From the NCBI GenBank assembly GCA_910592205.1, contig CAJVPJ010000046.1, positions 1-57,363 of the forward strand: a stretch of 57,363 bases of DNA, written 5' to 3'. Shown here one piece after another: positions 19,496-49,316 of the stretch; the stretch's first letter is position 1; each line of letters starts with the position of its first letter. A program made the translations under genes and the position numbers. The notes under the pieces are model-generated. The model did no database searches, was not told the DNA's origin, and saw only the letters and a program-made list of their open reading frames with translations. The stretch is from Paraglomus occultum (lineage: Eukaryota > Glomeromycota > Glomeromycetes > Paraglomerales > Paraglomeraceae).

Positions 19496-19536
19496 TTATT
19501 TCGCCGACAAAGTTTCGAAATTTGTCGGTGAAATAA
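19496..19536. repeat. 41-base near-perfect palindrome of the TTTCGCCGAC family
   Basis: The two arms TTATTTCGCCGACAAA and TTTGTCGGTGAAATAA face each other around TTTCGAAA-like centre bases. The unit matches the repeat at 3,962-4,150, so both belong to one repeat family. Confidence 0.75.
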
Positions 19537-23950: not shown

Positions 23951-24451
23951 GTCCCAATTAATTAACATTAATAGTGAAGTTACCTCGATAATGAAATTAC
24001 TGTAATTCGTATTTTTTGTTAACAAAAGCAAAAACCCTATTGTGCGTACAGAGAATCGTAATAAAATGAAAAGACAAAAAGAGAACTAAGTATTTGAACT
24101 GTGTAATATCAAGAACATTAAGAACCAAACGCTAGCAGCTTAATTTAAAATTGGTAATTAATAAACGTCTTGTTTATTGTTAACTAGTTTGCTTTAGTAT
24201 TGGGCACAAAAGCATTTATTCCTATTCTTTTTTAATTAGAGTTCGGTTCTTAATATTAATATTAATGTAATAATGTGTGAACAATTATTTGTTCAATGGG
24301 TAAATTCGGATTATGAAGAAAACTTCAAGCTTTGGTCCAATGGACTTTGGATTAACGTGGTTGAGAATTTTTATCCACATTCTCACGCCATTATCTCACG
24401 TGAAACACGTGTATTAGTGGTAAATTTTGATCTACAATTTTCGTCGGCAGC

Positions 24452-29066: not shown

Positions 29067-32000
29067 ATCCTGATCAGCTCACTCCGATAATATATTTTGA
29101 CGTGTTATAATGTAAATCGAATCTAGCAGCAGACGAAACCATGCGAGTAGAATATATGGCTATAACACATTTCAGGATCTGTTGAGGCATCAGGTGATTT
29201 GAATGTGTTAAAATAAATTCTGAACCATCGAACGAGGGAATGCATTGTGAATAATATCTACAGAAATTCGCCACCTTTATTCTGTTAGGGATTATTTTGA
29301 TTCGTGATTGGATCATCGTCTGATGAAAGTATTTAAACTATTCCATCGTATGTGGATTAGATCATCATATATTACGCCGACATAGAGATGTAAATCGAAC
29401 TGTTTAGGAAAAAAGTTGAGGGCATAGTAAACACCATATTTATGTACGCGCTATCGTGTTTAAAATTAATTAAGATAAGAATTGCCCATATCACCTTTTA
29501 TTAATTAATCATTATTATCGCATTGTATGCTCGCGTTCTATTTCCATGCAATCAAATTGAAATTTAAGATCAGATGTAATACTACAGTACATTGGGCACC
29601 AAAAAGTTTGTAATAAAACTTTTAGTGTTGTACTGAGGGTACGATAACAATGCTTGTTACATTGATTTGAGCAACTTGATTATACTTTTTGAAAAAAAAA
29701 AGATAGACAAAATACGCCAACGTTATTATATCACAGCAGTTTAATGAAGTGGGCAGTAGGTAAATGCATATATGGTCATACATTTTTTCCTCTTGTAATT
29801 TGTAAAGTGTTACTTTGTCAAATGTAGCTTTATAACAGTAATAAATTTTTTGGTTTCATACCTTTTATTATTGATTCACAAAAAGACTTTTTGTTGCTTC
29901 TGAATGAGCTCGTGAGTATATAAAATGCACAAGCTTTATTAATAAAAGCGACAGGAACCTACAATTATTATTACCGCCGACTTCTTCGTTATAATGTAAG
30001 CAGATAAATATCGGTAATAAAATTTATAGTAATTCGTTCTTATACTAGACGGGTATAGTCAAAGCTCACTATAATAAGATACGTTACAACGGAAACGCGA
30101 TATGAAAAAACTTTATTGTCACAATTTGTAATAGATCATACATGCTATTATGAAAAATCCTGTGCTTTTACAGATTGTGCCCAATTTTCTGTTAGACAGT
30201 AAAGCCCGTTTTAACGAAAAGTTTCGTTTCGCCAAATAACTCGTTAAAGAGTTAATGCGGGACTCCTTCGTCAAGAGGAAATTTATTTTCCAATATTAAT
30301 ATCATCTTCCCGTTCCTTCTTGTTTAATTGTTTTCAATCCTCTGTTTTTACTGGTACAATATGTTTAAAGCATTTGTTTACGCAGTTACTCTGAGAACAA
30401 ACTTTGACGCTTGGATTTTGCTGCTGACAAAATAAGGCAAGGTTATCGAGAGCTGTTACAGCTATAATAATAACGAATTGTTATGATAAACCGAGCTTTG
30501 TTATAATAAATCAAACGTCATCATGCCAATACGCCAATTTACATCGTTATATACGTCTTAATTATAAACCTTTCTTCAATTGAGAGCTAAAACACATATA
30601 ATGAGTTGGTTTCATAAGAACTCGTTCTTTGTCGTTGTTAAACCGGACTTTACTGTGTATAATGCGCGTTTCCAGAAAAAGCAATCGACATTTACCAATT
30701 ATTATGGAACTATTTGCAGCCAATAGAAGTTTGAAGACATAAATCGCATGCACCCGCTATTATTATTATGTATTAATAATAGTTGCACAAAATGTTGCAC
30801 ATGTTACTAGAACCAATTTGTAGATGTAGAACTAAATTGCGGGTTGGATTTTGTTCATTATGTTCACAACGTTGTGTGGCAGAATTCTTATACTAATAGA
30901 CTTGACTTTCATAAATTTCTAGGTTCGTGAACGAATTATTCCTCTAGCAAGCAGTAATCAATTTACAGCAATACTCTTGCCGAGGCACTAAGCAGTTAAT
31001 TTTGAATTTACTGGCGCATTACAAAATCTATCAGAATATTTATTGTGTTACTATGCGTGTATTAGATACGATCGACAAAAACGATTTTCGCGCCTCTTTC
31101 AAATGCTTAAAATTTCGTCTTCACCAATATGTCGCGTAAAAGCGTATCTATTCCCAAATTTATTTAAATAATCCAAATCTGTGTGCATATTTTCTTCATT
31201 ATATTAAACAGGATGTCAAATGTTATGCATAGGATCCGCAAACGCCAATTCTTCCACGCAGTCGTTCTGCAGTATAATCACCATCCATATTATGTTAATA
31301 AGTTAGCACTCTAATAAACATAGCAAGTTAATCTGGTAACCAATGGCGATGAAATCTCTTACTGTTTTGATTTATTAAATATAGCAACGGAAATGCTTTG
31401 AAAGAAACCCAATTTTGTCTAATTTAGACTTGTTAGTCGCTGACATATGACAAATGTTTGTTACCGTCGTCCGTCTTTTCTATTATTAACGCAGGATGGC
31501 GTTTTTCGTCTGCTCTGGTAGATGCCAAGTTTTTCTATGCGCAATGTCTTTCAAGTATATTGTTTGTCCTGGATAAATGCAAACTGTTTAGTATGTATCA
31601 CTCTGTTTGAATGTTATACTGGCTTGCTCGCTGGCCCGCTCGGTTAGTTGTATCACCCTTGTAGACAGAGCGGCATGAACTGATTGGGCATTTCTCCTTG
31701 AACAAACACATGTACGACATGTCCTCACCCAAAAAACAGTTAGAATTTGTATTTGAAGTACGGAAGGTATTCAATGATTCCAAGTTTCTCTTACTAACAA
31801 CAATCAGCGTCATAGAGTAGTTACATTAGAATTTGACTCGCTTACTCTTTATTAACTATAATTAATTCCTTCGGTTTACCATTTGTTCTTCAGTCTCGTT
31901 CTCATCCACACATTTTGAGAAATAAGGAACGACCAATACAAGCACAGCACACTTAGGCACCCGAAGTTAACAGTAACCACCGCTTTCTACAACCCAATAG

Positions 32001-32073
32001 TACCATTATATAAGAAACACCTTGTATCTACTCCTAATATCCACGTTGATAAAACATACCGGAGTTTAAATAT
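29067..32073. other. Fungal intergenic region
   Basis: No supported gene. Short terminal-repeat-like pieces occur at about 29,590 (GGGCACCAAAAAGTTTG, the same family as the element at 36,941-37,136), at about 30,065-30,095 and 30,480-30,515, and at about 30,200-30,265. The last few hundred bases should contain the promoter and 5' UTR of the kinase gene. Confidence 0.5.
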
Positions 32074-35000
32074 ATGACTTCAGAAATAGCAATCCCCTCG
32101 CCTACGCCCGCTCGCCTTAATGCTCAACAACATAGAGCACGAAAGCCCTCGTTTAGTGTCAGCAAGACTGATCTATTACTAGAAACGTTGAGAGAAGAAC
32201 AAGTGTCTAGTAGTCAACGAGCTGCCAGAGAATTTATTGAACAGACATTAGACATAAAACTACTTGGCAGTAATCTACACGAGTCTTTGAAAGATGGTGT
32301 TGTCTTATGCAGGTAATTATGACAAAAAATTGCGTTTGCTTAATTATATGAGATGGTAGAGCGCGTTAATTAGAAAGAATACCATGACCGGAAGATTAGG
32401 CGTAGGATTGCGTGTTCGGCTACACGATTCATAGCTAGTGAATAATTTGCAATATATGATGTCATCTGTATTTATAAGTTACATAAACTCGTTTGCTGTG
32501 GACATCTTGTGTTGCTGCGTCTCGTTATTTATTGCAATATTTGGCTATTGCTAACCATGTTAGATTATATTCTCTTTATTTAGTTTAATGAATCGGTTAA
32601 AGCCTAACTCAATACCACAAATCAGTCGAAAAAACTTACCTTTTGTCAAGGTACAAGAGGACCTTATACTTTGTAATTACCGCATTTGCATTGATTAACC
32701 AATTTTTGTTATAACCAAATAGATGGAGAACATACATAACTTCTTGAATGCAGCTCGACAGGTAAGATTCTAGTATGCTCCTCATGAACGTTACTTATGG
32801 ACACGATGTGATCTAACAGATCTACCAATGCTAATATTACAGTTTGGTCTACATAACTCTGACTTATTTGAAACAGTTGATTTGTTTGAGGGAAAAGATA
32901 TGGAGAGGGTGTGTATTAGTAGACTATGACACGGGTGATATCAGACTTGTATAACCATTGCTATTACTGTCGACACCATGTTGTTATTGTCAAGTTGGTA
33001 ATTACGGCATTTTTATTAACACGCATCATTATTTAGGTCGTGGCAACCATCTTAGCATTAGCACGGATTGCTGCTGGTAAATATACTTGCCGACGGTCAG
33101 ACGTATCAATAGAAAAGCATAATACGAAAGAACAAGGAAGATTTAAAGAAAACACAGAACAACCCAATAAAATAGAGAATCAATTACCGAGTTCTCACGG
33201 AGCAATACCTAATAGTGAAATAAGTCGGCGAGCACGTGGTGATTCACGGAGATTAACTCAGCCCCCAACAGACGGGGACCAGGTGATCATAGATGCAGTA
33301 AAGAAGTCACGAAGGCACTCTTTAGCTGATACTAAATTTCGTATGGAAAGAACACTTAATGAACGGTCTATAGCGGAACGGACAATTGCTGAGACTGAAT
33401 GGACATTGCCTCCTACACACCGACAGAACTCTGTCACAAATGGTCAGCTAGAGAGAAATTCTAGTGCACCAGAATTATTTTCAATGGACGAGAATGTTGC
33501 AAGCGAAGAAACAAATCTTCAGAAGAAGAGGCCTAGTTTACGTAAAGTAGTAACTATGGGGCAATTATTTACCAAAGTAAATGAAAATGATCAAGACGAA
33601 TCCGAATTTATTGATAATCAGATACCACCATTGCCATCTTCAGCAAGCATTGAGAAATCTGAGAACGATATTGGATTAAAAATTTCGCGAAGATCTAGTC
33701 ACATTAAGACTCACGTACGATATAAGAGTGATAGGACCGCAGAGATATCGTTTAACAAAAATGATCGAATAATGGCATTTCCAGAAGTTCGACCTCGTAG
33801 AGAGAGTTTAGTGGGAACAAGTTTGCTTACTACAGATATAAGAGATCGTGAAAAGCTTGTACTTATGGAGGATGGTCAAATAGTGGCTCAATACCAATTA
33901 GGTAACTGTATTGGGAAAGGACAATTTGGGGCTGTATATAGAGCCCTCCATCTCGGCACTGGACAAATGGTGGCTGTTAAACGCATAAAATTAGACGGGA
34001 GGAAAGATGAGGAAATTCAACAACTCATGCAGGAAGTCGAGTTACTCAAGTCTTTATCTCATCCTAGTGTTGTAAAATATGAAGCATATATAATGACGGA
34101 AGATTATATCAACATTATTCTCGAATACGCAGAGAATGGTTCTCTTTTAAATACTCTGAAGTCGTTTGGTAATTTCCCCGAAAAACTCGTTGCCTCTTAT
34201 GTGGTCAAAATTCTAGAGGGTTTAAGTTATCTTCACAACAAACACGTTGTTCATTGTGATTTGAAAGCAGCTAATATTCTTACAACTAAGAATGGCAATG
34301 TAAAATTATCTGACTTTGGAGTCTCGTTGAACTTAAAAATGATGGAGAAAGTTAATACAGATGTTGCTGGAACGCCCAATTGGATGGCTCCTGAAGTAAT
34401 AGAACTCAAAGGTGCATCTACAGCGTCTGATATATGGTCGCTTGGATGTACTATAATCGAATTGCTTACTGGTAAGCCACCATACGCCGATTTAATGGCA
34501 ATGACAACATTATTTCGTATAGTTGAAGATGAGTGTCCACCTATACCTTCGACAATATCTGAAGAGTTGGACGATTTTCTTCGCCTATGCTTCCGCAAAA
34601 ATTCAGCTGCTCGGCCGACTGCTAACGAATTATTCAAACATCCATGGATATTGAATAACTGGTCTATGCGGGAATTACGCCCTCAGGATTCTCTACCTTT
34701 TATTCGTCGAATTACATCAGAGAACAATATCCCTGACATGTCTTCTTTGACCAATTCTGCAACCACTACTCCGAACAACCCACTGGATGAAAATGGAATT
34801 GACACGGATCCAAGAATTTCATATTATAATCCAGTGCTTTTTGCTGCCTCTCCACCAATATCGCCTGTAGGAAGTCCTATTACGACACCTCATTTGGCCT
34901 TCGCTCCTCCACAACCGCAAACCAAAATGTATGTTGCCACGCCTCTTATTCCACATCGTTTTGTGAAAAATTCATTCAGCAAACGTAAGTATTGATAATT

Positions 35001-35918
35001 AGGCGAAGAACACGTCTGTTATATTAAATATGTATGCATGCGAACGCCTAGCGTCGTAATGCACATCGAAATCTATTGAATATGACTAATTCGATCATAT
35101 AATATTAGCCGTCGAGTGTAGGATATGTCACCACACTGTGAAGAGTAAAGTAGTCATGTGTGAAGGTAAGAATTTTATTCGCCGAGGAAGTGATATAAGA
35201 ACTTCAACTTAACACAATCCACTTGTCCTGTAACAGAATGCAATATGGTCTGTCATTCAAAGTGTCAAGGCGAGGCACCATTTCCATGCTCATTACCAAA
35301 TAGAAAGATTATGTATACTTCTCTTGGCGTGGTAAGTCGTATTGTAATTTACGATATTGCGAACAGACATAAATTATTATATTGCACCACGTAAACTAAC
35401 TCCTCTGCTGTCCTTTTGCTTACCTCCCGTCGTTGATGACACTCTTGAAGATTGATGATTCTCTTCCATCTCGCGTAAATAGTATAAACAGCAGTTCTTC
35501 TGATCCCGATGTTCAACACACGTCGAATGTTTCACCAATCCCGATTACTGCCACTCTCCATCGACCACCGTCTGCCCCCCCTACTCCAACAAAACGCCAT
35601 CCTTCCCGTTTCAAGCGTCCCAATAAGAAAGATGATTCTGTTAATTCAACTTCTTCCATCACTGACAGTATTGACTCATCCGCTTCTGGCTCAAGTTCGC
35701 GTCCAGGGGAGGCGAACTCGAGCTGGAATGGACGACCATTGTCAACCATAAGTATCGAGGAGAATCGAATAGTTATTAGAGATTTTGTTAAGACTGATGG
35801 AAATGTGAGTAGCGTCAATGCGAGTGGAAGTGGAGGAAAGAGTGCAAAGAGTATAGGGTTGAGATTGAAAAAGAGGATGAGCAGTGGGAAGAATGACCAA
35901 GAGTGTCTACTAATGTGA
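32074..35918 (+). CDS. Cdc15/Cdc7/SepH-like kinase with CH, C1 and CaaX elements
   Basis: Eight exons (32074-32312, 32584-32650, 32723-32761, 32843-32908, 33037-34984, 35109-35165, 35237-35331, 35451-35918) give a 992-residue frame. Residues about 48-150 are a calponin-homology domain split over exons 1-5. A Ser/Arg-rich linker follows. The kinase domain (about residues 420-680) has GKGQFGAVYRA, the VAVKR lysine, HCDLKAANIL with Cys in place of the usual Arg as in fungal SIN/MEN kinases, DFG and MAPE. Exons 5-7 encode an atypical C1 zinc-binding domain (H-x12-C-x2-C then C-x2-C-x4-H-x2-C-x7-C). The last residues are a basic stretch and ECLLM, a CaaX box. The family starts septation or mitotic exit from the spindle pole body. 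The CH domain may add actin binding and the CaaX box membrane attachment; both are inferences. Confidence 0.9.
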
Positions 35919-36513
35919 AGGAATCTGATGTGTATTATTCTGAAATGTATTATTTAAATTAATTTTGGGACTTACTGAACCCTTCTGTGATATACACATT
36001 TTTTTTGTAACATAATTTTTTTTATTTCGCCTTCTCGTAGTTGTCTCTATTTGTTTCACCAAAATAGTAATTATAATTAGAAAGCTAGTTTGCAGGACGG
36101 ACAGACGTCAGACACCTGCTGAAAATTTCTTATATACTTTTCTGACGAACTCTGTGCTCTACTGCCTTTCTAACACTCAATACAGAATTCATATTTTTTT
36201 GGTAAGATATTCCATCCATCTATATAACCTGACAAAAACGAAAATGTGCTATAAAAAGACAGGATCTGGCCAGTTAACTGATGAACGGTTTGACTTTTTG
36301 TGCGGATGATTTCTAAACCCCCGTAGTAACATTTTGCATCAATAACAAAGTTATTCTAAGTAAACGCGTAATTTTCGCCAAATCTCTGAAAAACCTTCCG
36401 AGGTAGTATTAAGCTTCGTATTGTTTGTCTCTTATAAATAACAGTATTTTTTGCATGAAGTAATGTATCTATGGTCCGGTGCAAAAAGATAGATACCTCT
36501 CAATTTTAGACCA

Positions 36514-36786
36514 TCCCCTAGCATAAATTACCGGATGTCTTGTCAAACACATAGTAAAACATGAAATTCTTATTTTTTCAAAGAGCTTTACTGCACGTAT
36601 TTTACTATGTAAGTCACGACGATTTTTTTATGACACTGTTTACATTACACATAATGTAACATAGATGCTGTCACTTTGTTGAACTACAAGTTTCAAAAAT
36701 GCCGTGCAATAAAGCTCTTTGAAAAATAAAAATTTCACATGTTTTACTATGTGTTTGACAAGACATACGGTAATTTATGCTAGGGA
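36514..36786. mobile_element. Inner long-terminal-inverted-repeat MITE
   Basis: Arms of about 85 bases face each other: 36,514-36,599 and 36,702-36,786. They share CTAGCATAAATTACCG and TCTTGTCAAACACATAG. The centre is about 100 bases and non-coding. The two arms could fold into one long hairpin. Confidence 0.75.
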
Positions 36787-36940
36787 AGTGTATAGTACAT
36801 CACTTAACTTGTTTGAAAATGTCTCTATTCTCGCGCTGCTCCTCTAACTGAAAACAAAAAAAATAACGATTTTTATCAAAAGTTCACACTACGCAAGCGT
36901 TCTGGGGGGGGGGGGGGTTTCAGAAAACGATGAGCATGTA

Positions 36941-37136
36941 CAGTGGGTACCAAAAAGTTTGTAAATTTTGTAAATACAATAACTTTTTATTTTTTGTATT
37001 TACAATATAAGTACTCATGCTTTTTAATTAAGTTGAAGCAAAGTAGTTGTATTTATTGGACAACATACGCTATTGTTACAACACTGCAGTCTAATAAAAG
37101 TGCTCTTGATTTACACAAACTTTTTGGTACCCCCTG
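36941..37136. mobile_element. 196-base MITE with TA target duplication
   Basis: The terminal repeats CAGTGGGTACCAAAAAGTTT and CAGGGGGTACCAAAAAGTTT (the latter on the minus strand) are bounded by TA at 36,939-36,940 and 37,137-37,138. A related end occurs near 29,590, so the family has more than one member in the window. Confidence 0.8.
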
Positions 37137-38691
37137 TATGTTTATCTAATTTTTTAAGATAATATGGAATCCAGTGAGTAAATTTTAATAAAAAGTTTAT
37201 TTGCAATAATCTGAGGTATCTCTTTTTGCACCGGACCATATTTGAATAATGAGAAATCTTCGATCTCAGTGTATTTGATAACGTCTTCAGAGAATTACCT
37301 CGACATAAAATACTAATAATAATATTAGTTGTTAACTCATTGAGTCTATTGTTATAAAAATTAAGTAAATAATTGGTTACCTCTGCTGAGTTTATCAACA
37401 TAAATAAATAACACAAAAAAGGAAACAACTTTGCTGCGAGATATACGCATTCCTTAACGAAAACCTTCATAATTTGAGCTAAACAAATTGATATCTCGTA
37501 GTACCTTTCTCTTAACTATTTTTGTAGTGTTGGTTTTCTTTGGCATTCTGGCGTGCATTAATTAAAATTGGACTTAAAGTGATTACTAGATTTGGAACCT
37601 TCCTCAGTACATGTATTACGTAGTATCCATCAACTACCAGGTTTTAACATAAATCCTTCGGGCTGTAAGCGTTTTTTGTACAATTAGCGTTTTTTGTACG
37701 TGATTGACACTACAGTGAAGCAGAAATTGGAATCAGCTGACGAATAAGCTTATCGAAGTTATAATTTTTAGGAGTGTTGATAAGTTTTCAAACAGGTGTG
37801 CTTGACTAACTATTATTACGCAATAAATTCTGAGTGCTCTTCTTCTCCTATCAGATTTAGCAGTCACTGTAGGGAAAACGCGCTCATTAGTTATTCATTA
37901 TTTGTATTACCAAATATGATAAGTCGTTATTGTTAGCTAGATACACTCGCCAATCACACAAAGTTTATTTTCGTAGATAAACTAGGGAGCAAACCTAAGT
38001 TACTTTTATGTGGTGATTATAGAACGCGCTCTGCTACAACAGTAAAAGTCCGCTTTAACGAAACATTTTATGAAACCAATTTACTGTACGTCACCGGGCA
38101 AAATAAATGTAGAACAATGTATTACTATGTAAGTCACAACGATTTTGTACCGTTTTGAAGCTGTAGTTCGATAAAGCGGTAGTAGCTACCATGAAAAAAA
38201 TTTTCTTTCTGACTTTGCAGGATATCGTCGTAGCTTTGAAATAAAGTCGTATAAATGTCGTATATTATCAGCCTTTCTATTATTCGAAACATCGAAATAA
38301 AAAGGAGCTAGCAAGATACTCAAAGTTGAATAGACGCTCCCATTATAGCTAATAGCGCGCAGGCTAGCTATGAGATCCATTATAACGTTTTTGGCAATAC
38401 CGTAGATATACTACTATTTTATTAAAATAATGAAAAGTTTTGTAAATCGATGATTTACGGGATGTGTACTCCTTAAAATGATGATTGGTAACCAAGGCCC
38501 ATTTCCATTTTCAGGCAGGTCAATTTCCCCTTATTTTGTAACTAAATGCGTACATGATCTGCGACTGACTAACCGATCACATTTTTGGCGGAAATTCTAA
38601 TATACACTCAATTGAGTACAACTTTATTGCCAAGCTACCCAGGAGGGCTAAAGCTAGTTTTAACATGATACAGGATTAGAATTCTAATATA

Positions 38692-39144
38692 CACTCACCT
38701 ACCAAAAGTATTGGCGATTTATGTCGATCGAATAGTAAAACATATTTAAATTTTGAACCCCCATATTTTACATATTTACTATGTAAGTTGTAATAATTTT
38801 TATACGGTTTTTAAGATAATTGATTTTATTTTTCAGGGAAACAAGGATAAATCCAGTTCGTTATCATTTTGCAGCTATACAGTCTGTTAAAATGGCGGTA
38901 TCTATGTTAAACATATGAAATGTTATGAAAGTCTATATGTCCCATTGATACTGTTACTTCAACGGACTGTATAGCAACAAAATGATAAGGGACTGGGTTT
39001 TCCTGAAATTATCTTCAAAACCGTATAAAAATTATTGTAACTTACATAGTAAATATGTAAAATATGGGTGTTCGGAAAAAGTAAAATTTAATATGTTTTA
39101 CTATTTGATCGACATAAATCGCCAATACTTTTGGTAGGTGAGTG
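38692..39144. mobile_element. 453-base palindromic MITE next to the RUS gene
   Basis: Both ends read CACTCACCTACCAAAAGTAT inward and are flanked by TA (38,690-38,691 and 39,145-39,146). The arms continue with high similarity for about 200 bases, including CAAAATGATAA-type segments near the middle. The element is non-coding and lies about 200 bases upstream of the RUS start, so it may overlap the promoter. Confidence 0.8.
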
Positions 39145-39343
39145 TAGTTATGTCCATGAATAGCTGTTATTTCAACAAGCACTGCTACAAACCTTTTTAG
39201 CAATAGTGTTATTAGTAGGTGGAGTATGTTTCTCCACTTTGTTCCCACTTTTCATTACCTAAACTAAAGATAAACCTAAATTTGGAAGGTGAACAAAATC
39301 GGAATAGAGTCCAAAACTCTGTGGTAATTTTTCGTAGGAAATT

Positions 39344-41229
39344 GTGCTTTCAACGATGTCATTACTTTGGTCTCAATGTCGTTTCCCAAGCTATAAATAT
39401 GTGGGCTTGCTACCTCGATCCTGTTCAGGAAAGTGTCCAATATTGACACAAAATATTCTCACGTATAAAACTAACACGAAAGGTGCTCGACCTGTCTTAC
39501 GCGTTTGCCAGCAGTTACGCAAACCGTTGCAGTCGAAACTGATAGCGGTTACCTTTCAAACGCAGAGGATCTCTTGTAGCAAACTGTCAAATGAGGAGAT
39601 AAAATTGAACGTAAAGCAAGTTTCGCTTCGACGAAATTCTCGAGAAAGTTCCCTGACGCAGGCATGGTCAGAAATGAGAAAACACGTTATTGCAGCGTTC
39701 ATGCCAAAAGGATATCCCGACTCTGTTACGGAAAACTATTGGGGTTTTACTAAATGGCAGTTTATACACGTTGTCGCTGGTTCGATAACCGGAGGTGTGT
39801 TGCTATTGTAGCCACTTGATTCTTTTCGACAAAAGAATCCTTTAACACAATGAATTCTTATCGGAAATAGTGTTGTCTACACAATCACTTCTTTATGCTT
39901 TGGGGCTGGGAGCCAATTCGATTCCTGTAAGTTTGAATAAGTTTCTTATCAGTTATCCATTCGAAGTTCTGACAACTGTTTCACTTTTGTGCGAAGCTTG
40001 CGGCAGCCTTGAATTGGGTGATTAAAGACGGATTGGGTCATCTTGGGGGTGTGTTTTATGCAGCGTTCATCAGTGATCGCTTTGATTCCGAGCCGAAACG
40101 CCATCGTCTTCGTTCCGTTCTTGCGATGCAAGCGGCATCTTTACTAGAACTGGTAACTCCCTTGTGGCCGCATATGTTCTTGTTGATTGCATCCCTTTCA
40201 AATGTTGGTAAGAAGAATCAGGACCGTTAATCTTGCAGAATCATTGGATTATTGACTTTCGCTTTGAAATTTAGGCAAGAATGTAGCATGGTTGGCGGGT
40301 TCCGCAACTAGGTAGAAACTTCGAACTAATTTGGAAGACTGGAAAAAGCATCCACGTCATCCACACCAGTTATACAAGCAAGTGAATATTAATAAGTATA
40401 TTGGCCTGTGTATATTCTTATTCTTTGTAGGGCACAAATGACTAAGACGTTTGCGTTGAGGGACAAGTAAGTTGTTGTTATAATTCATGTAACATAAATC
40501 AGTATTATCAATGCTGCTTTACTAATGGATGTCATATAGTATGGGCGATATTACTGCAAAATCTGGGTCTCAAGGAACCGTGGCTGGTCTTATAGGTAAT
40601 TATTGTTGTACATATTTCAATCACGCCTGATGAAACTGATAAAACACTTATTAGGAACTGGTCTGGGCGTAGCAATCAGCGCTGCAATCACTTCGGCGTA
40701 TGCCAATTATTCGTTGCTCTCACCAGCAGAGCAGCTTGTGCCGATGCTCATTGCTTTTGCGCCTTTCTCGTTTTTTAATATTTATGCAAGTTATTGCTCC
40801 AACCTTTACGTTACGACTCCGACTCTAAACATCCCCCGAGCAGAATTGATCATTCATACCGTTCTTCGCAATCTCACTGCGTCTAAAGAACTGCCAAACG
40901 TAAAAGGAGTTTCCTTGGATAACCAAATCCCCACACCTAAGAAAATATCTCTAAAGGAAAGCTTTGTTGGAAAATATATCTCGCCATTTGATATTCCCCT
41001 TTTGGTCGAACCATCAATTCATCATTACACTTCCCCGATGTATGCTGGTGAGTTACGCGACGCTTTGGATCAGACACAGTTCGTCCGCAAGGAAGAATAT
41101 TTCATTCTGCCACATATTGGAATACAACACAGCAAATTTCGCAAAGCAAACGTTGTTTTGTGGTTCACAGATAATGCAAGCACACGCGATTTTATTAAAG
41201 GGTTCTATCATGCGTGTGTATTAAGATAT
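39344..41229 (+). CDS. RUS/DUF647 family membrane protein, 3' end lost
   Basis: Exons 39344-39794, 39871-39926, 39997-40207, 40275-40311, 40431-40466, 40540-40595 and 40655 onward keep phase and give about 474 residues. The conserved RUS landmarks are PKGYPDSV, GVLSTQSLL, LKDGLGHLGG-like IKDGLGHLGG, DRFDSEPKRHR, LTPLWPH, SNVGKNVAWLAGSATRA and SQGTVAGLIGTGLG. The family (plant RUS1-6, human RUSF1) is membrane-associated with poorly defined biochemistry. Several hydrophobic segments are present. The expected last part of the family domain is missing. The frame runs on to a stop at 41,280, but that piece is the antisense of a bacterial gene, so the true 3' end is not in this window. The start at 39,344 is the first Met in frame; the N-terminal 90 residues are not conserved. 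Confidence 0.88.
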
Positions 41230-41236
41230 TTTGTTA
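41220..41236. other. Fungal-Mollicute sequence junction
   Basis: Left of this point the plus strand encodes a spliced RUS-family gene in the standard code. Right of it the minus strand encodes the C-terminal part of a bacterial pseudouridine synthase that needs UGA as Trp. The two reading frames lose family resemblance at the same bases, with no run of unknown bases between them. The exact base cannot be fixed because the short stretch TTAAGATATTTTG could belong to either side. Confidence 0.85.
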
Positions 41237-42024
41237 CCATACTTTTTATCGCCTACAATTGGACAACCAAAAAAAGATAGAATGCTGCGTATTTGGTGTT
41301 TTCGTCCAGTTCACAGGGTAATTTCTAGTAATTGATAATTATCTATTTCTTTAATTTTTTTTGTTTCGAGGGCACAAAATTTAGAATTAGGGTTATTTTC
41401 TTTTCAACTAAACTTCATCCTTTTTTCTTTTTCATCTTTTCAAAGATAACCTTCAATGTAATTAGGGATTTTTCTTGGAGAACTCTCAACCAAGGCTAAA
41501 TATTTCTTAGTTATCATTTCTTTATCACTGATTGCTTTGTATAAAATCCTTTTGGCTGAATTGTTTTTAGGGTAAATAACCAATCCTTTAGTTAACTTAT
41601 CTAGACGGTGGATAGCAGTCAGAGTAAAAAATTCTCGCAGTTTTTTTTGATATTCGTCCGGTTCCTCTTTCGACAGATAATACCTTACCATATTGTCTAA
41701 ACTCGGCATAGTTGTTCCGTGTTCTTTTAGGGCAATAAGTATATTTTGGTCTTGGTAAATAATTGTGAAATTCATTTCGACTTTTTTTGGAGTTGGCAAA
41801 ATATTAAAATCAGAAATCTTTAAGGAATTGTCAAAGATTTTAATTTCGTTGCCAGTTTTTAAGCGATAATGATAGTAACGAACATCTTTATCATTAACTT
41901 TTATCTTTTTAGTGCGAAATAGTTTATAAATTAGAGAGAGAGGTGTAGTTTGCAATCTTTTTTTGAGGAAACTGATTAAAGTCTGGTTAGCGGTCTCTTC
42001 TTGGATAATAGGTAGGACTAACAT
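41221..42024 (-). CDS. RluC/RluD-family 23S rRNA pseudouridine synthase, C-terminus cut
   Basis: Read with UGA as Trp, this is a 267-residue frame. The N-terminal about 70 residues resemble an S4 RNA-binding domain. The catalytic motif IHRLDKLTKGLVIY carries the nucleophilic Asp of the RluA family. The C-terminal motif LWTGRKHQIR...PIVGDKKYG is also present and includes UGA codons. Members usually continue several dozen residues past this motif, whereas here a TAA follows four residues later, at the fungal junction. The last residues may therefore be foreign. The family isomerises uridines in 23S rRNA. It is the last gene of a leftward cluster and overlaps the preceding frame by 38 nt. No clear ribosome binding site is seen. 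Confidence 0.88.
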
Positions 42025-43090
42025 TTTTTATTCTTTTTTGGTTTTTATTCGATTTTTTTCAAAAAATGCTGGAAAATAATAGCACAATTGCTCCAATTGT
42101 AACCACAACCAAAGGATTTTTTAAGTAGGGTTTTGGCAAGGTGGCGGGTGAAAAGGATTTGGTAGACTTATTGTCGCCTTTCTCATTTTGGTTATCATTA
42201 CTTTCTAGAACTTGAATAGCGTTTTCGATTTCGTTTTTCATGCTTTCTATGCCTTCTTTTGTTCATCTGTCTAAAAACTTTCTTCTTTCTTGATAAGGTA
42301 GTTTTTCTCAACCACTAATTTTTCTCTTAAAAAATCTTTCATCAATAAACTCTTTTACTAATTCTCTAATTTCTAACTCCTCTGGGTCAGTATCAACTAC
42401 ATATAAAAATTTACTATTTTTTACGGAAAGCCAACTTTTAGTGCTTAAAGCAGCATTTTTGATAACAACCGGCTTTTTATTTTCCTTTCACTCGGTCAAT
42501 TTTTTTTTAATTAGTTCAAAATAATCTTGAGGAAAATCAAGCGACAAAAAAATCTTGTCATAGACAAAGTTGTGGTCATTGAGTGAAACAATCAAAGGAG
42601 AATTCAAATCGAAAGATAGTCCATATTCAAGTAAGTTGATATTTTTTCAGTCAAACTTTAAATCTCTAAAATCTCAATCTTGCCTAATTTTTTCATTTTC
42701 CTCTTTATTCCGTCCGGCTGATAGGAAATTACTGTTAACTACCAAAACGTTAGAGCAATTTTCAGAAAAACCTATATAATTTCCAGTGTATTCTTCAATT
42801 CGTTGTAGTTCAAAATCGTTATTTTCTTTTAGAGCATTGTCAAGAAAAAAAACAAGCAAGGTATCATTTCCAACAAAAAATTCAATTACTTTCACTTTTC
42901 TTTCTTCGCCATTTAAGGAAAGTTCAAAGGGTTCAATTTCTACACGAAAAATTCAACAGTATTTATGATTAACCGAGGGGTTAGCCAATCATTTATCAAT
43001 TTCCTTTAACCCGGTTTGTCTTTCTGCCGCATTTAATTTTTGGACAGCATCAGTTTCTCCGCTTTTTGTGAAACTTATTGTTTGTGTCAT
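41987..43090 (-). CDS. Tail-anchored protein of unknown function
   Basis: A 367-residue code-4 frame that would break into several short pieces in the standard code because of at least seven UGA codons. Residues 1-270 look like a mixed alpha/beta cytoplasmic region rich in aromatic residues. A Lys/Asp/Asn/Ser-rich linker follows, then one membrane span (NPLVVVTIGAIVLLFSSIF) near residue 330 and a basic tail. This predicts a C-terminal membrane anchor with the bulk in the cytoplasm. No family is recognised. It starts 22 nt after the ung stop and overlaps the pseudouridine-synthase start, so translational coupling is likely. Confidence 0.75.
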
Positions 43091-43112
43091 GTGAATTTTT
43101 TCTGGCTCTTGA

Positions 43113-43865
43113 CTACTTTGGTGTTGTGAAAGATGAGTTTAAAATAGTCAGTCAGTTAATTTCCTCTTGCTGAGTATTCTTTAATAATTGGTTAGTTTTA
43201 GAAAAAGGTCGCGAGCCGATAAAATAACCTTTCTGGTCTTTTCCTTTGCTTTCAGCACTATAAGAAGAAGGGTGAGTGCTAGTTAGCACGTAATTATTGA
43301 GATTATTAATTCCGCATTGTTCGCCAATTTTGCGAGCCTTTTGCCCTCAAAATACTCAAACAATTTTCTTATTATGTTCGTTTAGATAAACCAAAAGAGA
43401 ATAAATAAATTCTTCCCACAATTTCATATGAGAAAGTGCCTGACCGTCCCGCACCGTGAGAGCCGTGTTTAACAGAAAAACACCTTCTTTAACTCAAGGA
43501 AGCAAATCACCTCTAACCGGCGGAGAACAGTTAAAATCACGACTAAACTCTAAAAAAATATTTTTCAGACTAGCCGGAATATAATTGGATTTTTGAGTGC
43601 TAAAAGCAATTCCGTCGGCCACTCCGGGCAAATGATAAGGATCTTGACCTAATATTACCACTTTTATTTTATTCAAAGATATCTCCCGAAAAAGACGAAA
43701 AATATTTTCTTTGCTCGGTCAACATTTATATTGGTTATATTCTTCTTCCACTTGTGCGAGTAAGGAAAAAAAATAGTTCTTTTTTTCTTCCTGTTGAAAA
43801 AAATCTTGCCACGAATTGTCAACTTGGTCCAAGTGAAATTTTTTTAGTAAATAACTATTGCTCAT
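43113..43865 (-). CDS. ung: Uracil-DNA glycosylase (family 1)
   Basis: A 250-residue code-4 frame. It removes uracil from DNA in base-excision repair. The water-activating motif GQDPYHLPGVADGIAFS is intact. SLKNIF and the LLNTALTVRDGQALSH segment follow. The second active-site loop reads THPSSYS where HPSPLS is usual, so the catalytic His is kept while the loop is altered. Five UGA codons are read as Trp, among them those in the VWVFWGQ segment. A strong ribosome binding site GGAGGG (43,871-43,876) lies five bases before the ATG, one of the few clear ones in this part. It sits between the L1 gene and the tail-anchored gene in one leftward cluster. Confidence 0.95.
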
Positions 43866-44079
43866 TTTTTCCCTCCAAAGCTCGACTTTGTTTATTATTT
43901 GTTTTTACTTAGTAAATTGATTGTGAACTTGCTATTTACTATAAATTTTTCCAGTTTTTGGTTATTGAGAATCAGAACCATTTCATTTATTAATCCTCTA
44001 GTTTTTCAAATTATATTCTTTTTCTTCCTTCGTAGGTAACCTTTATGATAGCCATTATCTGAATACTTGGAGTTTCGTA

Positions 44080-44502
44080 TTATAATTTAAATGAAACCCT
44101 GAGGCTAGGTCCCATGGTAGTTGACAACGCAATAAGGTTAAGAAATTGCCCTTTTCAACCGTTTGGACGCAAGTTTGCTACTTTATTGTAAATGTTTTGG
44201 TAATTAGTGATTAATTGTTCTAAACTAACATCACTTTGTCCCACTAAGGCATGAATATTACCGCTCTTATCTACTTTTAGCGGTTTTTTCTCTTTTTTGA
44301 ATTTAGCAATTTCCGAACTAACGATTTTGGTGAGATTGCTGTTTTTTTTGTTCGTTCAGTCTAACGCAAAACTAACTTTAATATTTTTCGATTTTTCTCG
44401 ATTATTAGAACAAAGAAAGTCCAACCCCTCCTGGGCGGAAAAATGCTTATTGAGGGGGATTTGATTTTTAACTTCTTGGTAGCGTCGGGAATGTTTTTTC
44501 AT
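44080..44502 (-). CDS. rplA: Ribosomal protein L1 lacking domain II
   Basis: A 140-residue code-4 frame. The N-terminal half (KKHSRRYQEV, FSAQEGLDFL, KVSFALDW) matches the start of L1. The C-terminal half (KVDKSGNIHALVG, then KGQFLNLIALSTTMGPSLRV) matches its end. Bacterial L1 is about 230 residues. Here the about 90 residues of domain II, which is inserted into domain I in the normal protein, are absent, and the two halves of domain I are joined by a short basic linker. Domain I carries the main contact to helices of the 23S rRNA L1 stalk, so binding could persist. L1 also autoregulates its mRNA in other bacteria. It lies 25 nt downstream of the J-domain gene. L11, its usual partner, is not adjacent. 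Confidence 0.75.
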
Positions 44503-44527
44503 TTTTATAAAAGTATTTAGTTAAGTT

Positions 44528-45288
44528 TTAGTAGAAAATTAGCGGCGAGATTTGGATTTGCCTTTTACCAAAGACCAATTGTCTAACTTTTTTCGCAAGG
44601 CAAAGAAGAGGAGAAAAACACTCAAAAAAAAAAAAAACAATTGCTGTTCCTCTAATTCCTCAATTTCCTCCTCTTTCTGACTGATAAGTTTGGTATGGAC
44701 TTAGGACTTGTTCAATTTCTTTTCATTCTTCCTCACTGAAACCGCTTTTTCAATGCATTTTACCGTAATTGTAGATTAAGTGATTAGCATACTCATCATA
44801 AGTAGGGATAAATGAATCATGAACTAAAAAAGTGTGTGTAACTACCGAGTGTCGGCGAAGATTTAAATTTCGTATAGATCAATATTGACAATTTTCTTTA
44901 ATGTTATCAATAATCTCTCTTCGGATTTGATTGTAACCAACATCACCGGGGCCGAGTTCAATTCCACTCGAATTACGAATTGAGCTATCACTCGTTCCTA
45001 AAATAATCCAATCTCCATATTCTCTTGTGAACATTGTTTGGTTATCTTCTTCTCTTCCTTTACCTTTCGAGAGTGCTTGGTAAGCCGCACTGATTTCTTT
45101 AAATCGGCTTTCAGCATCCGAAGAATTATTTTTATCGGGATGTCAGCGAAGAGCCAAGCGAAAATAGGCTTTTTTAATTTCACTTTCGGAAGCGTTTTGG
45201 TTTACTTCTAAAATTTCATAGTTGCTTTTCTTTGGTGCTGGAATATTTTCTAAAAGTTCGCTAAGCGGAGTTTTGAATTTTTTTTCAA
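44528..45288 (-). CDS. J-domain membrane-associated protein, start and end disturbed by homopolymers
   Basis: A code-4 frame of about 250 residues. The J domain spans roughly residues 20-85 (YEILEVNQNASESEIKKAY, then RWHPDKN with the HPD triad intact), so it should stimulate an Hsp70/DnaK. The following about 150 residues are unrecognised and lack the Cys-rich and C-terminal domains of DnaJ. A good AGGAGG (45,299-45,304) precedes a TTG at 45,288, but that TTG is out of frame with the J domain by one base across a run of eight A on the coding strand. Near the 3' end a run of 14 T shifts the frame away from what would otherwise be a membrane span with a basic tail. Both may be sequencing errors, slippage sites or decay. 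Confidence 0.7.
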
Positions 45289-45635
45289 AAACTCACCCCC
45301 TCCTTTTTTAGTTGCAATTTCGCGATTTTTTCGCACAAAGTATCAATATTTAAAAGAATATCAATCCTAAGTTCAGAATTTTCTATTTTTTCTAGTTCGG
45401 TTGAGATTTTTCTTTGAATTGCTCAAACTTCGTAATTATCATTAATTGCTTTTCTCTTTCATTCTTTCCACTGCTCTCTATAAGCCAAACGTAAATTTTC
45501 AATTTCGTCTCTATTTATATCCACACCTCAATCTTGGTTTAAACGGTTAATTAATTCTTCTAATTCTTCTTCTTTTTTGGTTAATTTATCTACTTGTTCA
45601 TTTTCTTCTAATTCTTCTAAATCATTTTTTAGCAT
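45261..45635 (-). CDS. Coiled-coil protein upstream of the J-domain frame
   Basis: A 124-residue code-4 frame rich in Glu, Lys and Leu, with heptad-like spacing over most of its length and four UGA codons read as Trp. No family is recognised. Its 3' end overlaps the start of the J-domain frame across the A8 tract (45,278-45,285). Loss of one base there would fuse the two frames into a single coiled-coil/J-domain protein. It is the first gene of the leftward cluster and diverges from mnmE. Confidence 0.6.
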
Positions 45636-45745
45636 TTTAATTTTATTTTTTAGTTTTTTTATTACAATAATAAATTATTTTTATATGTTTTTCCGGGCTA
45701 GTTCTGGGTAAATAATAGAATTAATAGAATTGTTGATTATAAAAA
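45636..45745. promoter_or_regulatory. Divergent promoter region between the leftward cluster and mnmE
   Basis: The 110-base spacer is more than 75% A+T and must start transcription of both directions. A TATAAA-like element lies at 45,737-45,742, almost touching the mnmE ATG, which would give a leaderless or very short leader. No purine-rich ribosome binding site precedes mnmE. Confidence 0.4.
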
Positions 45746-47116
45746 ATGATTTTCCCCCAAACTATCGTTTCCCTCGTTACTGCCCCAATTACTCAAAATG
45801 TGGCTTTAATTAGAATATCCGGCCCCCAAACTTACCCAATTATTCGGAAAATTTTTTTTGGTTCCTTACCTACTTATCCCCAAAAAGAAAAAAAGTTAGT
45901 TTTTGGCAAGATTATTAATCTCCAAAAAGAAATTGTTGATGAGGTTTTGCTCCTTTGTTTTTATAAACCTAATTCTTTTACTGGCGAGGACGTGGTGGAA
46001 ATTAGTTGTCATGGTAATTTGTTTATTGTTAATCAAATACTCCAATTAATTTTAGAAAATGGGGCAGAATTAGCCAAAGAAGGTGAATTTACCAAACAAG
46101 CCTTTTTTAACGGTAAACTCAATTTAGTTCAAGCCAACGCAGTAAATGATTTAATTCGGGCTCCCAGTTTAGCGGCGGCCAAATTAGCCCTACATAATTT
46201 AAGTTCAGAAACTCAACAAGAATTAGAACGGGTTGAAAATAAATTACTAGAAATTATTGCTAACATTAAAGTTAACATTGATTATCCCGAATATGACGGA
46301 GTGGAGTATTTAACCGGTAAACAAGTTTTACCACCACTAAGTAAGCTAACGGAAAAATTGAAGATAATTAAGGAAGACGGCGGCAAGGCTCGTGTTTACC
46401 AAGAAGGCTTAAAAGTTGCCATCGTGGGAAAACCCAACGTTGGCAAATCCACTCTTTTAAATTCTTTGGTAGGGGAAGAAAAAGCCATAGTGTCGCCTAT
46501 TGCTGGCACTACTCGCGATGTAGTAGAAGCCCGTTATAGTCTGAACGGCATACCCTTAACCTTACTGGATACGGCTGGCATTCACCCAACCCAAGATATC
46601 GTAGAAAAAATTGGTGTAGAAAGAAGTTACCAAGTTTTGGCAACAGCCGACATTATCTTTTTCCTAGTAGATAATTCAGATTTTTGAGAGGCAAGCGAAG
46701 AAAATATTTACCAAAAAATTCGGCAAAAGAATTATTTACTTATTATTAATAAAACCGATAAACCAAAAAAACTCCAAGTCCCTGATTATATTCCTTCTCC
46801 AAAAATCTGTCGTATTAGTGCAAAAAACAAGCAGCTGGGAGAATTAGAAACTAAAAGTCAAGAATCATTTGCTACTAACTTATTCACCAATTCCCCCGCT
46901 TACCCTTATTTGAGCCAAAGTTGGCAGCAAACTAAACTAACCAAACTTATTCAGCAGTTAGAAAGAGTAATTAGTGAATTAAAAAAAGAAACTTATTTAG
47001 ATGCTTTAGTTAGTAGTTTAGAAAATAGTTATAAAGTGACCAAAGAATTAAGTGGTAAAGAATATAAAGAAGATTTATTAGACATTATTTTTAGCAAATT
47101 TTGTTTGGGGAAATAA
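45746..47116 (+). CDS. mnmE: tRNA uridine-5-carboxymethylaminomethyl GTPase MnmE
   Basis: A 456-residue frame with one UGA (46,685-46,687) read as Trp; the standard code would cut it at residue 313. With MnmG, MnmE modifies the wobble uridine of several tRNAs. The N-terminal tetrahydrofolate-binding domain starts IVSLVTAP and carries VEISCHGN. The GTPase domain has the P-loop [19 protein letters not shown] and NKTD. The C-terminus FSKFCLGK preserves the catalytic cysteine motif FCIGK. Length and all motifs are normal for the family. The ATG is fixed by homology, since no ribosome binding site is evident. Confidence 0.97.
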
Positions 47117-47150
47117 AATTGATTAAAAAGATAAATGTTATACATTTGTC

Positions 47151-47273
47151 ATGTGCCAACCCCAAAAAAAATGTTTAACTTGCCAGCAAGCCCAAGAGTG
47201 AAGTCACAAAGAAGGAGGAATTTTTTCTTGTTCTGATTGTCAAGCTAGATTTAAAAAGGGGAGAAAATTATAA
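47151..47273 (+). CDS. Small zinc-ribbon-like protein
   Basis: A 40-codon code-4 frame with two CxxC pairs (CLTC and CSDC) about 20 residues apart and one UGA read as Trp, followed by a basic tail. The arrangement fits a single zinc ribbon. It begins 34 nt after mnmE and may be cotranscribed. Function unknown. The about 180 bases after it are extremely AT-rich and empty. Confidence 0.45.
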
Positions 47274-47455
47274 TGATTATCACAAAAAAATTTAATTAGA
47301 AAGTTTTATAATAATATATAAAAAACAAGATATTCGCATTAAACATAGTTAATTAAACATTTCTTATTATATAAAATTATATAAAACTTTTAAACTTAAA
47401 ACAAAAAAAAAATTTTCGTTAAAAAAAATTTACTGAGAAAACACAACTATATCAA

Positions 47456-47842
47456 TTACTTTAACTTTCTTTCTCTTTTCCATTCTTCAAAGGGCGTGTC
47501 ATCATGGTCGCTTTTTTCCAATTTAATCCCCGATTTTAAAAGTAATTCGTAATATTTTTTATTCACGTTCTCAAATTTCTCTACTCTCTTTTTCCAATTT
47601 TTTAAACCTTTTTCTGAGTCGTCATGTAAAGTATCCAACACTTTTTTTTCGCTTTCGGCTTTTGCTCTCTTTTCTACTTCTTCAATTAATTTCGGGATTA
47701 TTCCCTTTATCTCTTCTCCAGTATTCTCTTTTATTTCATTTTTATGAAAATGTGAAACAATAATATCAACAACAACTGTAACAACTGCACCGATGATTGC
47801 AGGAATGGATGCTATTATTAAATTTTTTACGAAATCATTCAT
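47456..47842 (-). CDS. Small membrane-anchored coiled-coil protein
   Basis: 128 residues, readable in either code. An N-terminal hydrophobic segment (residues about 8-30, IIASIPAIIGAVVTVVVDII) is followed by a charged helical region rich in Lys and Glu, probably a coiled coil in the cytoplasm. No family is recognised. It lies downstream of the leftward accessory genes but is separated from them by about 140 bases. Confidence 0.6.
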   Translation of the reverse strand: MNDFVKNLIIASIPAIIGAVVTVVVDIIVSHFHKNEIKENTGEEIKGIIPKLIEEVEKRAKAESEKKVLDTLHDDSEKGLKNWKKRVEKFENVNKKYYELLLKSGIKLEKSDHDDTPFEEWKRERKLK

Positions 47843-47983
47843 ATCTTTTATTTATTTATTAGGTTTAATTATTGTTTATCGTTTTTAAATATCAAAATTA
47901 AAACAATTTCAGCAAGCCAGTAAGCAATTTTTAAACTAACTATAATTTTTTCGTTCAGACACAAAAAAATTGTTCAGACTTGT

Positions 47984-48685
47984 TTAGTGACATTTCCGAC
48001 ATAGTCCACTATCAGTATCTACTTTTTTGTATTCGCCACAGTTAATGCACTTGCTTTCGGTTTCAACTTCTTTTTCTTCGGTTAAAACCTTATTATTCTG
48101 TTCTGGCTTAATTTCGTTTTGTAATTTTTGTCTTTCCAAGCAAGAATAACAAGGGCATTTAACCTTACCTCTTTCTTCGTGAAATTTGGCTGATTCAATA
48201 TCTTTTAAGTGTTCTTGGCTTTGCTTTTCTAATTGTTCAGTAGTAGTAAGGAAATTGTTTTCTATTCTCGCCTTTTCGTAACTCCAATATCTAATTAGCT
48301 TCTCCTGTTGCTCCGGAGTTAAACTCAACCAATGTTTTCCGATGGCTAGTTCTTTCTTGTCTGTCTCTCGATAATCTCTGATTAAAATTTCACCTAGTTC
48401 ACATAATCGCATAATTTCACTAGTGTTGTGGACTCCGTTTTCGGCTAAATCTTTCAGAGTGCGGGAGAAAGTAAATCATTTCTTTTGCTTATCTTTATTG
48501 AGTAAGGTGTATTCTTTGAAAGTCATTAAGATTTTGTAATTCTCAACTTGCGAGTACTTTTTGATTTGTTGGTTTTCTTGCTCTTTTTTATGTTTTTTAG
48601 TTAGTTGGTATCTATTTTTGCGACGAAGTTTTATGGTAGTTTGGTTAGCTTGGTAATAGTTTTGGTTGGTTATTTGTTTATTCAT
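47984..48685 (-). CDS. Unknown protein with two cysteine-pair motifs
   Basis: A 233-residue code-4 frame; a single UGA at 48,476-48,478 would split it in the standard code. The N-terminus is very basic (Lys/Gln/Asn-rich). A helical middle follows. The C-terminal third has CPCYSC and a CINCGEYKK...GLCRKCH zinc ribbon. This layout suggests nucleic-acid binding. Its start overlaps the end of the methyltransferase-like gene by 8 nt, so the two are probably translationally coupled. Confidence 0.65.
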
Positions 48686-49310
48686 GTTTCTTTTTGTGGT
48701 AAAAATAATGTGGTTCTAGCCCTTTTAGGTTAAAAATCAAGATTTCGCTGTGAAATAGCACATTAGGAAAAATATTCTTAGGTAAAGTAATTCGGCTACT
48801 AATTGGTGGATAAGTGCCATTCTCGAATTTGGCGTGTCTTTTACTTTCGAAGGTGAGATTTAAGCAAAAACCAGCCGGGACAAATAAAACGATGGGTATT
48901 TCTTTACCAAATAACTCGATTATTTTGGCTAATCAGACTTCACTGCCCAACTGGTGACCATAACCATTAAAAGGTGGGTTACAGAGAATAAGAGATGGTT
49001 TTTTTCACTTCCGCTCTCACTTTTCAATTTTTAAGAAATCAAATTTAATATCGGCTGAACTAGTTTCGTCCCTATCTATCCCCCAAGTTTCATAACCAGT
49101 TTTTTTTCAAGGCTCTAACAAAGAACCTTGACCGGAACAAGGATCTAAAATAAGTGAACTTTTTTGAAAAGCTTTCGGGTGATCATAGTCATATTCTTGG
49201 TAAAAATGAGTTTTAAGTAACTCATAAATAAATTCACTCACTTCTTTCGGAGTGTAAATGGTGCTATTCTTAGGTTTAGTATGATAATTATTACGGTTCA
49301 TTTGATACAT
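48678..49310 (-). CDS. Adenine-specific DNA methyltransferase-like protein
   Basis: A 210-residue code-4 frame. The N-terminal YTPKEVSEFIYELL resembles motif X of amino-methyltransferases. ILDPCSGQGSLLEP is motif I, which binds S-adenosylmethionine. WGIDRDE fits motif II and LILCNPPF is motif IV, the catalytic NPPF of N6-adenine methyltransferases. It is much shorter than restriction-linked enzymes and has no room for a large target-recognition domain, as in phage and plasmid orphan enzymes. The start may be the internal ATG at 49,301, which carries the repeated ATGAACCGTAA sequence. No restriction endonuclease is visible nearby. Target base and activity are inferred from motifs only. Confidence 0.75.
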
Positions 49311-49316
49311 GGTTTT

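Follow-up and report, generated by a model that had tools for sequence, protein, structure and literature searches.

Sequences of Mollicutes-related endobacteria (MRE) are found in public assemblies of Mucoromycota, and passages of a recent survey speak of 'chimeric MRE-Mucoromycota genome assemblies' and name the Paraglomeraceae as one family of hosts (Longley et al., 2024, PMC11423566), the word Paraglomus being absent from its main text. Chimeras also form in phi29 multiple displacement amplification (MDA). Sections of one study report 495 of them in 10.9 Mb of mapped bases, with complementarity of at least 2 bp in 76.8%, and describe a route by which displaced 3' ends anneal elsewhere, mostly within the same molecule and in some cases on another one (PMC1855051). 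As parts of the source have it, assemblies of Paraglomus occultum were obtained from sorted nuclei through phi29 MDA, Illumina HiSeq-X sequencing and SPAdes run on pooled reads (PMC10512289). The subject here is contig CAJVPJ010000046.1 of a P. occultum assembly (GCA_910592205.1), hereafter C46, analysed over its entire length of 57,363 bp (the window). In this contig a fungal RUS gene (DUF647) and an endobacterial gene for an RluA-family pseudouridine synthase (Rlu) break off at the same place, near 41,229. C46 is probably a chimera, in which amplification would have joined nuclear DNA of P. occultum to DNA of a Candidatus Moeniiplasma-like MRE isolated together with it.

Two genes broken at one place

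C46 consists of DNA of two origins, the break between them is located, and the remainder of the gene on either side of it is missing. The two parts, the two genes and the join are listed below.

1..41229, P. occultum nuclear DNA, from composition, the identity of RUS to the deposited protein P0121, an intron-bearing gene and protein domains
39356..39794, plus strand, RUS (PF04884) exon 1, from the spliced model and Pfam
39871..39926, plus strand, RUS exon 2, spliced model
39997..40207, plus strand, RUS exon 3, spliced model
40275..40311, plus strand, RUS exon 4, spliced model
40431..40466, plus strand, RUS exon 5, spliced model
40540..40595, plus strand, RUS exon 6, spliced model
40655..41229, plus strand, RUS exon 7, cut off; in the alignment the last 62 residues of the Paraglomus brasilianum ortholog are unmatched
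41227..41229, the join, where 'TAT' gives Tyr of RUS and Ile of Rlu, from protein alignments
41221..42024, minus strand, RluA-family pseudouridine synthase in code 4, about 48 C-terminal residues short, from PF00849 and alignment
41230..57363 (contig end), MRE chromosome segment, from composition, UGA-recoded open reading frames (ORFs) and similarity to contigs C309 and C1136

The composition of the window was followed with a 6-mer log-odds model trained on contigs other than C46, C309 being part of the training set. Contigs were classed as MRE or fungal by the stretches read, with C46, C309, C1136, C1219 and C719 taken whole. Among the one-kb bins left of 41,001, 40 of 41 score as fungal, the exception being the bin at 6,001 (+8.7), while all 17 bins from 41,001 onward, including the last, are MRE-like. 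Composition thus switches once in 57 kb, from fungal to MRE, and fungal sequence never resumes. The best single change point lies at 41,318, with positions from 41,260 nearly equal to it, at a resolution of the model of about 100 bp. In a check on held-out contigs, the share of MRE-like windows was 98% for C1136, 93% for C662 and 0% for both C1219 and C719, and in a rough check of AT bias 6 of 42 fungal 200-bp windows with GC below 30% scored as MRE-like. GC itself, which the sequence-only reading had proposed to compare across the join, hardly differs (0.359 on the left, 0.335 on the right). Pfam domains in the fungal part are those of protein kinase, SIS-CBS and Rrp44-S1 proteins. In the right part, ORFs of at least 150 residues cover 0.66 of the sequence under code 4 and 0.19 under code 11, which supports the reading of UGA as Trp.

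The RUS gene has seven exons, separated by six GT..AG introns of 59-119 bp. Its spliced product is identical over all 486 residues (100%) to a deposited P. occultum protein (P0121, 11092_t:CDS:2) and scores 232 bits against PF04884 (UVB_sens_prot, DUF647), for which the cut-off is 28.3. The last residues that it shares with homologues are ..HACVLRY, with the Tyr codon at 41,227-41,229, and all nine homologues aligned run beyond this point, by 55-66 residues counted from the invariant Arg. The ortholog of P. brasilianum (P0122), 86% identical in the alignment and 88% according to the search table, carries 62 extra C-terminal residues; its record is partial at the start and keeps the C-terminal end. 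Pfam places a UVB_sens_C domain (PF24160) at residues 389-464 of P0122 and none in P0121, and the 62-residue tail of P0122, which starts at residue 419, holds more than half of that match. As the domain is absent from P0121 and present in P0122, the RUS gene is cut and does not belong to another family.

On the opposite strand, the Rlu gene scores 79.1 bits against PF00849 (cut-off 26.8) and contains three in-frame UGA codons. Its conserved match ends with GDKKYGNKI, the Ile codon being at 41,229-41,227; one more codon follows and then a stop, both of which are fungal sequence. Homologues run beyond the break in 11 of the 12 cases aligned, by 37-99 residues, and by 48 in the case of P0001, the remaining one (P0002) being a 194-residue fragment that ends before it. 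The score against TIGR00005 (119.4) misses the curated cut-off of 192.7; since the longer relative P0001 misses it as well (125.6), the cut-off probably leaves out this MRE group. Among the best 120 of 2,065 hits, the relatives of Rlu include P0001, a metagenome protein from a 47-kb contig (92% identity), and proteins from metagenome-assembled genomes of Candidatus Moeniiplasma (60-65%). A scan of a genome collection for MRE synteny returned 79 loci, none of them from MRE, with the best from Spiroplasma (42-43%).

The triplet 'TAT' at 41,227-41,229 fits both genes. The AGA that precedes it fits RUS alone, and the TTT that follows fits Rlu, its first T being possibly common to the two. The parental molecules would thus have shared a microhomology of 3-4 bp, as read from the protein alignments. 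With respect to the break itself, these results bear out the sequence-only reading, which had described a spliced RUS/DUF647 gene on the plus strand up to about 41,229 and a UGA-recoded pseudouridine synthase on the minus strand ending at about 41,230, both broken at the same base and both lacking their expected remainders.

Origin of the join

The join in C46 is most likely an artefact that arose in amplification and then passed through assembly. Two molecules, one a P. occultum nuclear chromosome (1-41,229) and the other an MRE chromosome (41,230-57,363), would have been present in the same amplification well, where, during phi29 MDA, the displaced 3' end of one molecule would have annealed to the other at three or four matching bases and been extended (template switching). 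The chimeric product would then have been sequenced in short reads and emerged from SPAdes as one contig, the breaks in RUS and Rlu being by-products of the join. An origin of this kind is supported by the single switch in composition, by MRE sequence that runs on until the contig stops, by the UGA-recoded genes (ung and mnmE above their curated cut-offs, and Rlu with its frame open as far as the break), by the other MRE contigs of the assembly and by the intact RUS tail of P. brasilianum. MRE-only stretches are present on 11 other contigs, namely C16 (79 kb), C89, C262, C309, C561, C652, C662, C853, C864, C877 and C1136. At least two MRE lineages appear to be represented, as indicated by the 76% identity between the mnmE genes of C46 and C309 and the 66% identity between copies on C561 and C309 of a gene that we take to be Der-like. 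To judge from the deposited protein P0121, which lies on a contig of 57,363 bp, the present assembly belongs to the amplified set (PMC10512289).

Amplification is preferred over assembly as the step at fault for the following reason. C864 and C1136 share an exact 77-bp end, which suggests that SPAdes worked with k = 77; a match of 3-4 bp is too short for a join at that k, and the reads therefore probably carried the join already. The sequence-only reading had favoured co-sequenced endobacterial DNA joined in assembly: the source that it named is the likelier one, whereas a join in assembly, taken strictly, is unlikely.

Several observations weigh against an origin in amplification. The nuclei were PCR-screened as bacteria-negative, according to parts of the source (PMC10512289). 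As described in sections of PMC1855051, MDA chimeras mostly join nearby segments, and complementarity was found in only 27.6-34.8% of those whose segments lie more than 10 kb apart, while passages of a larger study give overlaps mostly of 5-8 nt (PMC4595205), compared with 3-4 here. A further point is that the intact RUS and rlu genes, which the sequence-only reading had suggested looking for on other contigs, did not come to light, although under a chimera the true continuations of both genes should exist. Neither an intact RUS gene nor a second copy of its tail was found in the contigs searched (1,408, totalling 32.3 Mb and apparently comprising all those of at least 10,000 bp, since contigs are numbered by decreasing length and C1408 has exactly 10,000 bp), the only other RUS-like place being a distant paralog on C1182 (28%, C-terminal part). 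In protein searches, no small P. occultum protein carrying the RUS tail was detected, nor any other copy of the Rlu gene or its tail in the same contigs. The genome searches score the best candidates only (e.g., the best 40 of 103), so that counts are lower bounds. Passages of PMC9453076 put the single-nucleus assembly of P. occultum at 49 Mb; about one-third of it thus lies outside the 32.3 Mb searched, and the failure to find the gene tails counts only weakly. Lastly, of six MRE stretches used for comparison, five have a higher code-4 ORF coverage (0.67-0.88) than the right part (0.66), which exceeds C662 alone (0.38), and some genes of this part appear broken. Pseudogenes, at 7.3-35.2% of MRE genomes with the exception of MRE-L (sections of PMC10507103), are nevertheless common in these bacteria, so that broken genes do not demonstrate nuclear residence.

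Some of the same observations can be turned in favour of a real and very recent insertion, in which at least 16 kb of MRE chromosome entered the last RUS exon, its far junction lying past the contig end. This event, which is unlikely, would have proceeded by end-joining repair with 3-4 bp of microhomology and would have left a truncated RUS gene whose product ends in 16 foreign residues. The exactness of the join, in a contig without N, would agree with it, as would the missing RUS copy or tail in the searched contigs, although the RUS gene of P. brasilianum keeps its C-terminal end and the assembly is rich in MRE DNA. Short MRE-derived pieces on seven fungal-looking contigs (see below) indicate that such transfer may occur in this genome; these interior pieces, however, measure only 32 to about 350 bp and four of the seven are clearly diverged, unlike the C46 segment, which extends over 16 kb up to the contig end and has full-length ung and mnmE genes. 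The fusion of MRE-like Rlu to a kinase domain in a protein of Rhizophagus irregularis (P0084) might be another case of insertion. The low ORF coverage of the right part also speaks for insertion, since decay exceeding that of the living bacterium would be expected in a nucleus unless the insertion is very young, though pseudogenes are common in MRE. Altogether, no result was found to favour insertion of the 16-kb segment, apart from the lack of an intact RUS copy among contigs that cover part of the genome.

It is improbable that the contig is a pure software misjoin, with SPAdes linking fungal and MRE edges that never lay on one molecule. The contacts of C1202 with C864 and C1136 suggest that edges of fungal-like and of MRE sequence may meet in the graph, but there is no repeat at 41,229, no N in the window, and the 31-mers that span the join are unique within it. 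The sole match elsewhere in the contigs searched near the join, among the candidates scored, is a 46-bp piece on C1219 that starts to the right of it. As to C1202, which has a mostly fungal score, its terminal poly-A 77-mer is that of the MRE contig C864, and a 128-bp stretch of it matches the start of the MRE contig C1136 at 95%, possibly a second fungal/MRE contact in the graph. Transfer in the opposite direction, by which fungal DNA would reside within an MRE chromosome and the entire contig would be bacterial, is nearly excluded, for although host-to-MRE gene transfer is on record (passages of PMC10507103), the 41 kb have fungal composition, introns and a P. occultum gene, and the repeat lying at 38,690-39,146 is related to sequences on at least 33 other contigs (best 40 of 103 candidates scored).

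If C46 is chimeric, foreign sequence is present both in a deposited P. occultum contig and in the annotated protein P0121, the genes of the right 16 kb could pass for fungal genes or for cases of horizontal transfer, and the assembly needs an MRE screen able to cut inside contigs. If the insertion were true, the nucleus of an arbuscular mycorrhizal fungus would recently have acquired 16 kb or more of endobacterial DNA.

Neighbouring genes and short endobacterial pieces

Apart from several hypothetical genes, of which one is listed, the other genes identified to the right of the join are the following; the ORF lists of C1136 and C309 were inspected in part.

41987..43090, minus strand, MRE hypothetical protein, homologous DNA on C1136 (68% identity)
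43113..43865, minus strand, uracil-DNA glycosylase (ung), full length, above the curated cut-off
44080..44502, minus strand, short ribosomal protein L1 of 140 residues, of which profile positions 137-224 alone match
45746..47116, plus strand, mnmE (trmE), full length, over the curated cut-off, with a second copy on C309 (76% identical)
52597..53258, plus strand, helix-turn-helix protein and small partner gene, with similar pairs on C1136, C16, C89, C662 and C877

In the short L1 gene the end fits the family, the start resembles L1 by eye and the middle is absent. A J-domain gene at 44,528-45,157 was suspected of being truncated, which was rejected because the J domain lies in frame further upstream (no ATG was seen there). 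Between 55,346 and 56,737 on the plus strand there are broken-looking MRE genes, a small frame with one stop and a secreted-protein-like gene spread across two frames. A return of fungal sequence near 55-57 kb, suspected from gene fragments in two frames, was rejected since the region is MRE-like by composition. In the fungal part, the repeat at 38,690-39,146, which lies roughly 2 kb to the left of the join, is palindromic and resembles a miniature inverted-repeat transposable element, with arms of 64 and 67 nt that are 94-95% complementary. Further left, at 15991-17124 on the minus strand, a 378-codon open frame encodes SIS and two CBS domains, an arabinose-5-phosphate isomerase-like architecture that occurs in bacteria.

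Five MRE DNA queries of about 46 kb in total (window positions 41,200-50,000 and 50,000-57,363, and 10 kb each of C1136, C309 and C561) matched, besides MRE contigs, seven fungal-looking contigs, which were thus picked by their matching the queries. In all seven the piece is flanked to the left and right by sequence of fungal-like composition, and a reversed-sequence control over the same 120,768 bases gave 0 matches.

C719, locus L012/L026, 15.0-17.0 kb, piece of 127 bp, 78% identity, mnmE
C1378, locus L127 (C1378:1835-5010), 1469-1820, piece of 212 bp, 73%
C1219, locus L014, 427-472 and 1410-1505, pieces of 46 bp (87%, Rlu) and 97 bp (78%)
C189, locus L138, 383-483, piece of 106 bp, 85%, gapped
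C780, locus L137, 1501-1573, piece of 73 bp, 95%
C253, locus L139, 358-397, piece of 40 bp, 95%
C815, locus L133, 1501-1532, piece of 32 bp, 100%

The count of seven excludes C30 (57 bp, 83%, gapped, doubtful), C1202 (contig end, poly-A) and C967. In C719, nine of ten windows at 15.0-17.0 kb are MRE-like, with fungal-like sequence beyond both ends, and the piece might belong to a 2-kb island. The C1378 piece has a protein-level match across about 350 bp, with frames broken, and adjoins an exon that, from its protein letters, is presumably ribonucleotide-reductase-like. The C1219 pieces have a left flank of about 400 bp and are followed by a 2,203-residue ORF, helicase-like as we take it from its protein letters, and the C780 piece adjoins a gene whose product is presumably an S10-like ribosomal protein, again by its letters. 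About 400 bp were read on either side for C189 and C253, and the fungal status of these two contigs and of C815 is given by composition only.

The divergence of the C719, C1378, C1219 and C189 pieces from the co-assembled MRE, together with the gaps or broken frames seen in three of them (C719, C1378 and C189), makes amplification chimeras an unlikely explanation for these four, unless they came from a further MRE lineage not seen here. In contrast to them, the pieces of C780, C253 and C815, which are 95-100% identical, could be either young inserts or artefacts. The Rlu piece of C1219 seems to end near the same codon as the C46 break, possibly by chance: it ends beside that break, which is also where the MRE sequence of the query ends. 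A search for 47 Rlu tails beyond this piece was negative, with a best score of 28, which 64 of 100 shuffles reached, the mean of all 100 being 30.0.

The short pieces are possibly numt-like nuclear fossils of MRE, numts being the mitochondrial DNA that other eukaryotes take up. A broader view would be that P. occultum chromosomes take up MRE DNA, leaving many short decaying pieces and also, in C46, a very recent insert of 16 kb or more by which RUS was broken. In full, such a view is unlikely; within it, the short pieces (C719, C1219, C1378, C780, C815, C189 and C253) are the better supported part and the C46 insertion the bolder one. If real, the pieces would form a fossil record of the residence time of MRE in Paraglomus, with a bearing on late invasion versus vertical inheritance, and they are worth a study of their own irrespective of the outcome for C46. 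In R. irregularis, P0084 lies on a 2.9-Mb contig and combines an MRE-like Rlu stretch of 180 residues with a partial protein kinase domain; this fusion may reflect nuclear insertion of MRE DNA, seen in an assembly of large contigs, or be one more chimera. The open-access literature searched yielded no report of MRE-derived nuclear pieces, and the bacterial genes of R. irregularis are said, in parts of PMC5982333, not to derive from known MRE.

Comparison with known systems

As in the phi29 MDA chimeras described in sections of PMC1855051 and of Tu et al. (2015, PMC4595205), C46 joins unrelated segments at a few matching bases, presumably in MDA material. Those chimeras mostly form within 10 kb, whereas that of C46 would be intermolecular and would have survived into a 57-kb contig. 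The contig also shares with the assemblies of Longley et al. (2024, PMC11423566) the presence of MRE contigs in a fungal assembly and, apparently, of several MRE in one host; the passages of that survey drawn on here describe no single fungus/MRE breakpoint, while the break in C46 is located to the base. The short MRE pieces in fungal-looking contigs are similar to nuwts and numts, the endosymbiont or organelle DNA of nuclear chromosomes. In contrast, the C46 segment is long, has full-length genes, and is terminal and one-sided. Finally, the MRE part of C46 resembles Candidatus Moeniiplasma glomeromycotorum and other MRE in its use of UGA for Trp, its GC content of 33.5% and the 60-65% identity of its Rlu protein, and it represents a lineage apart from the MRE of C309, as judged from the 76% identity of their mnmE genes.

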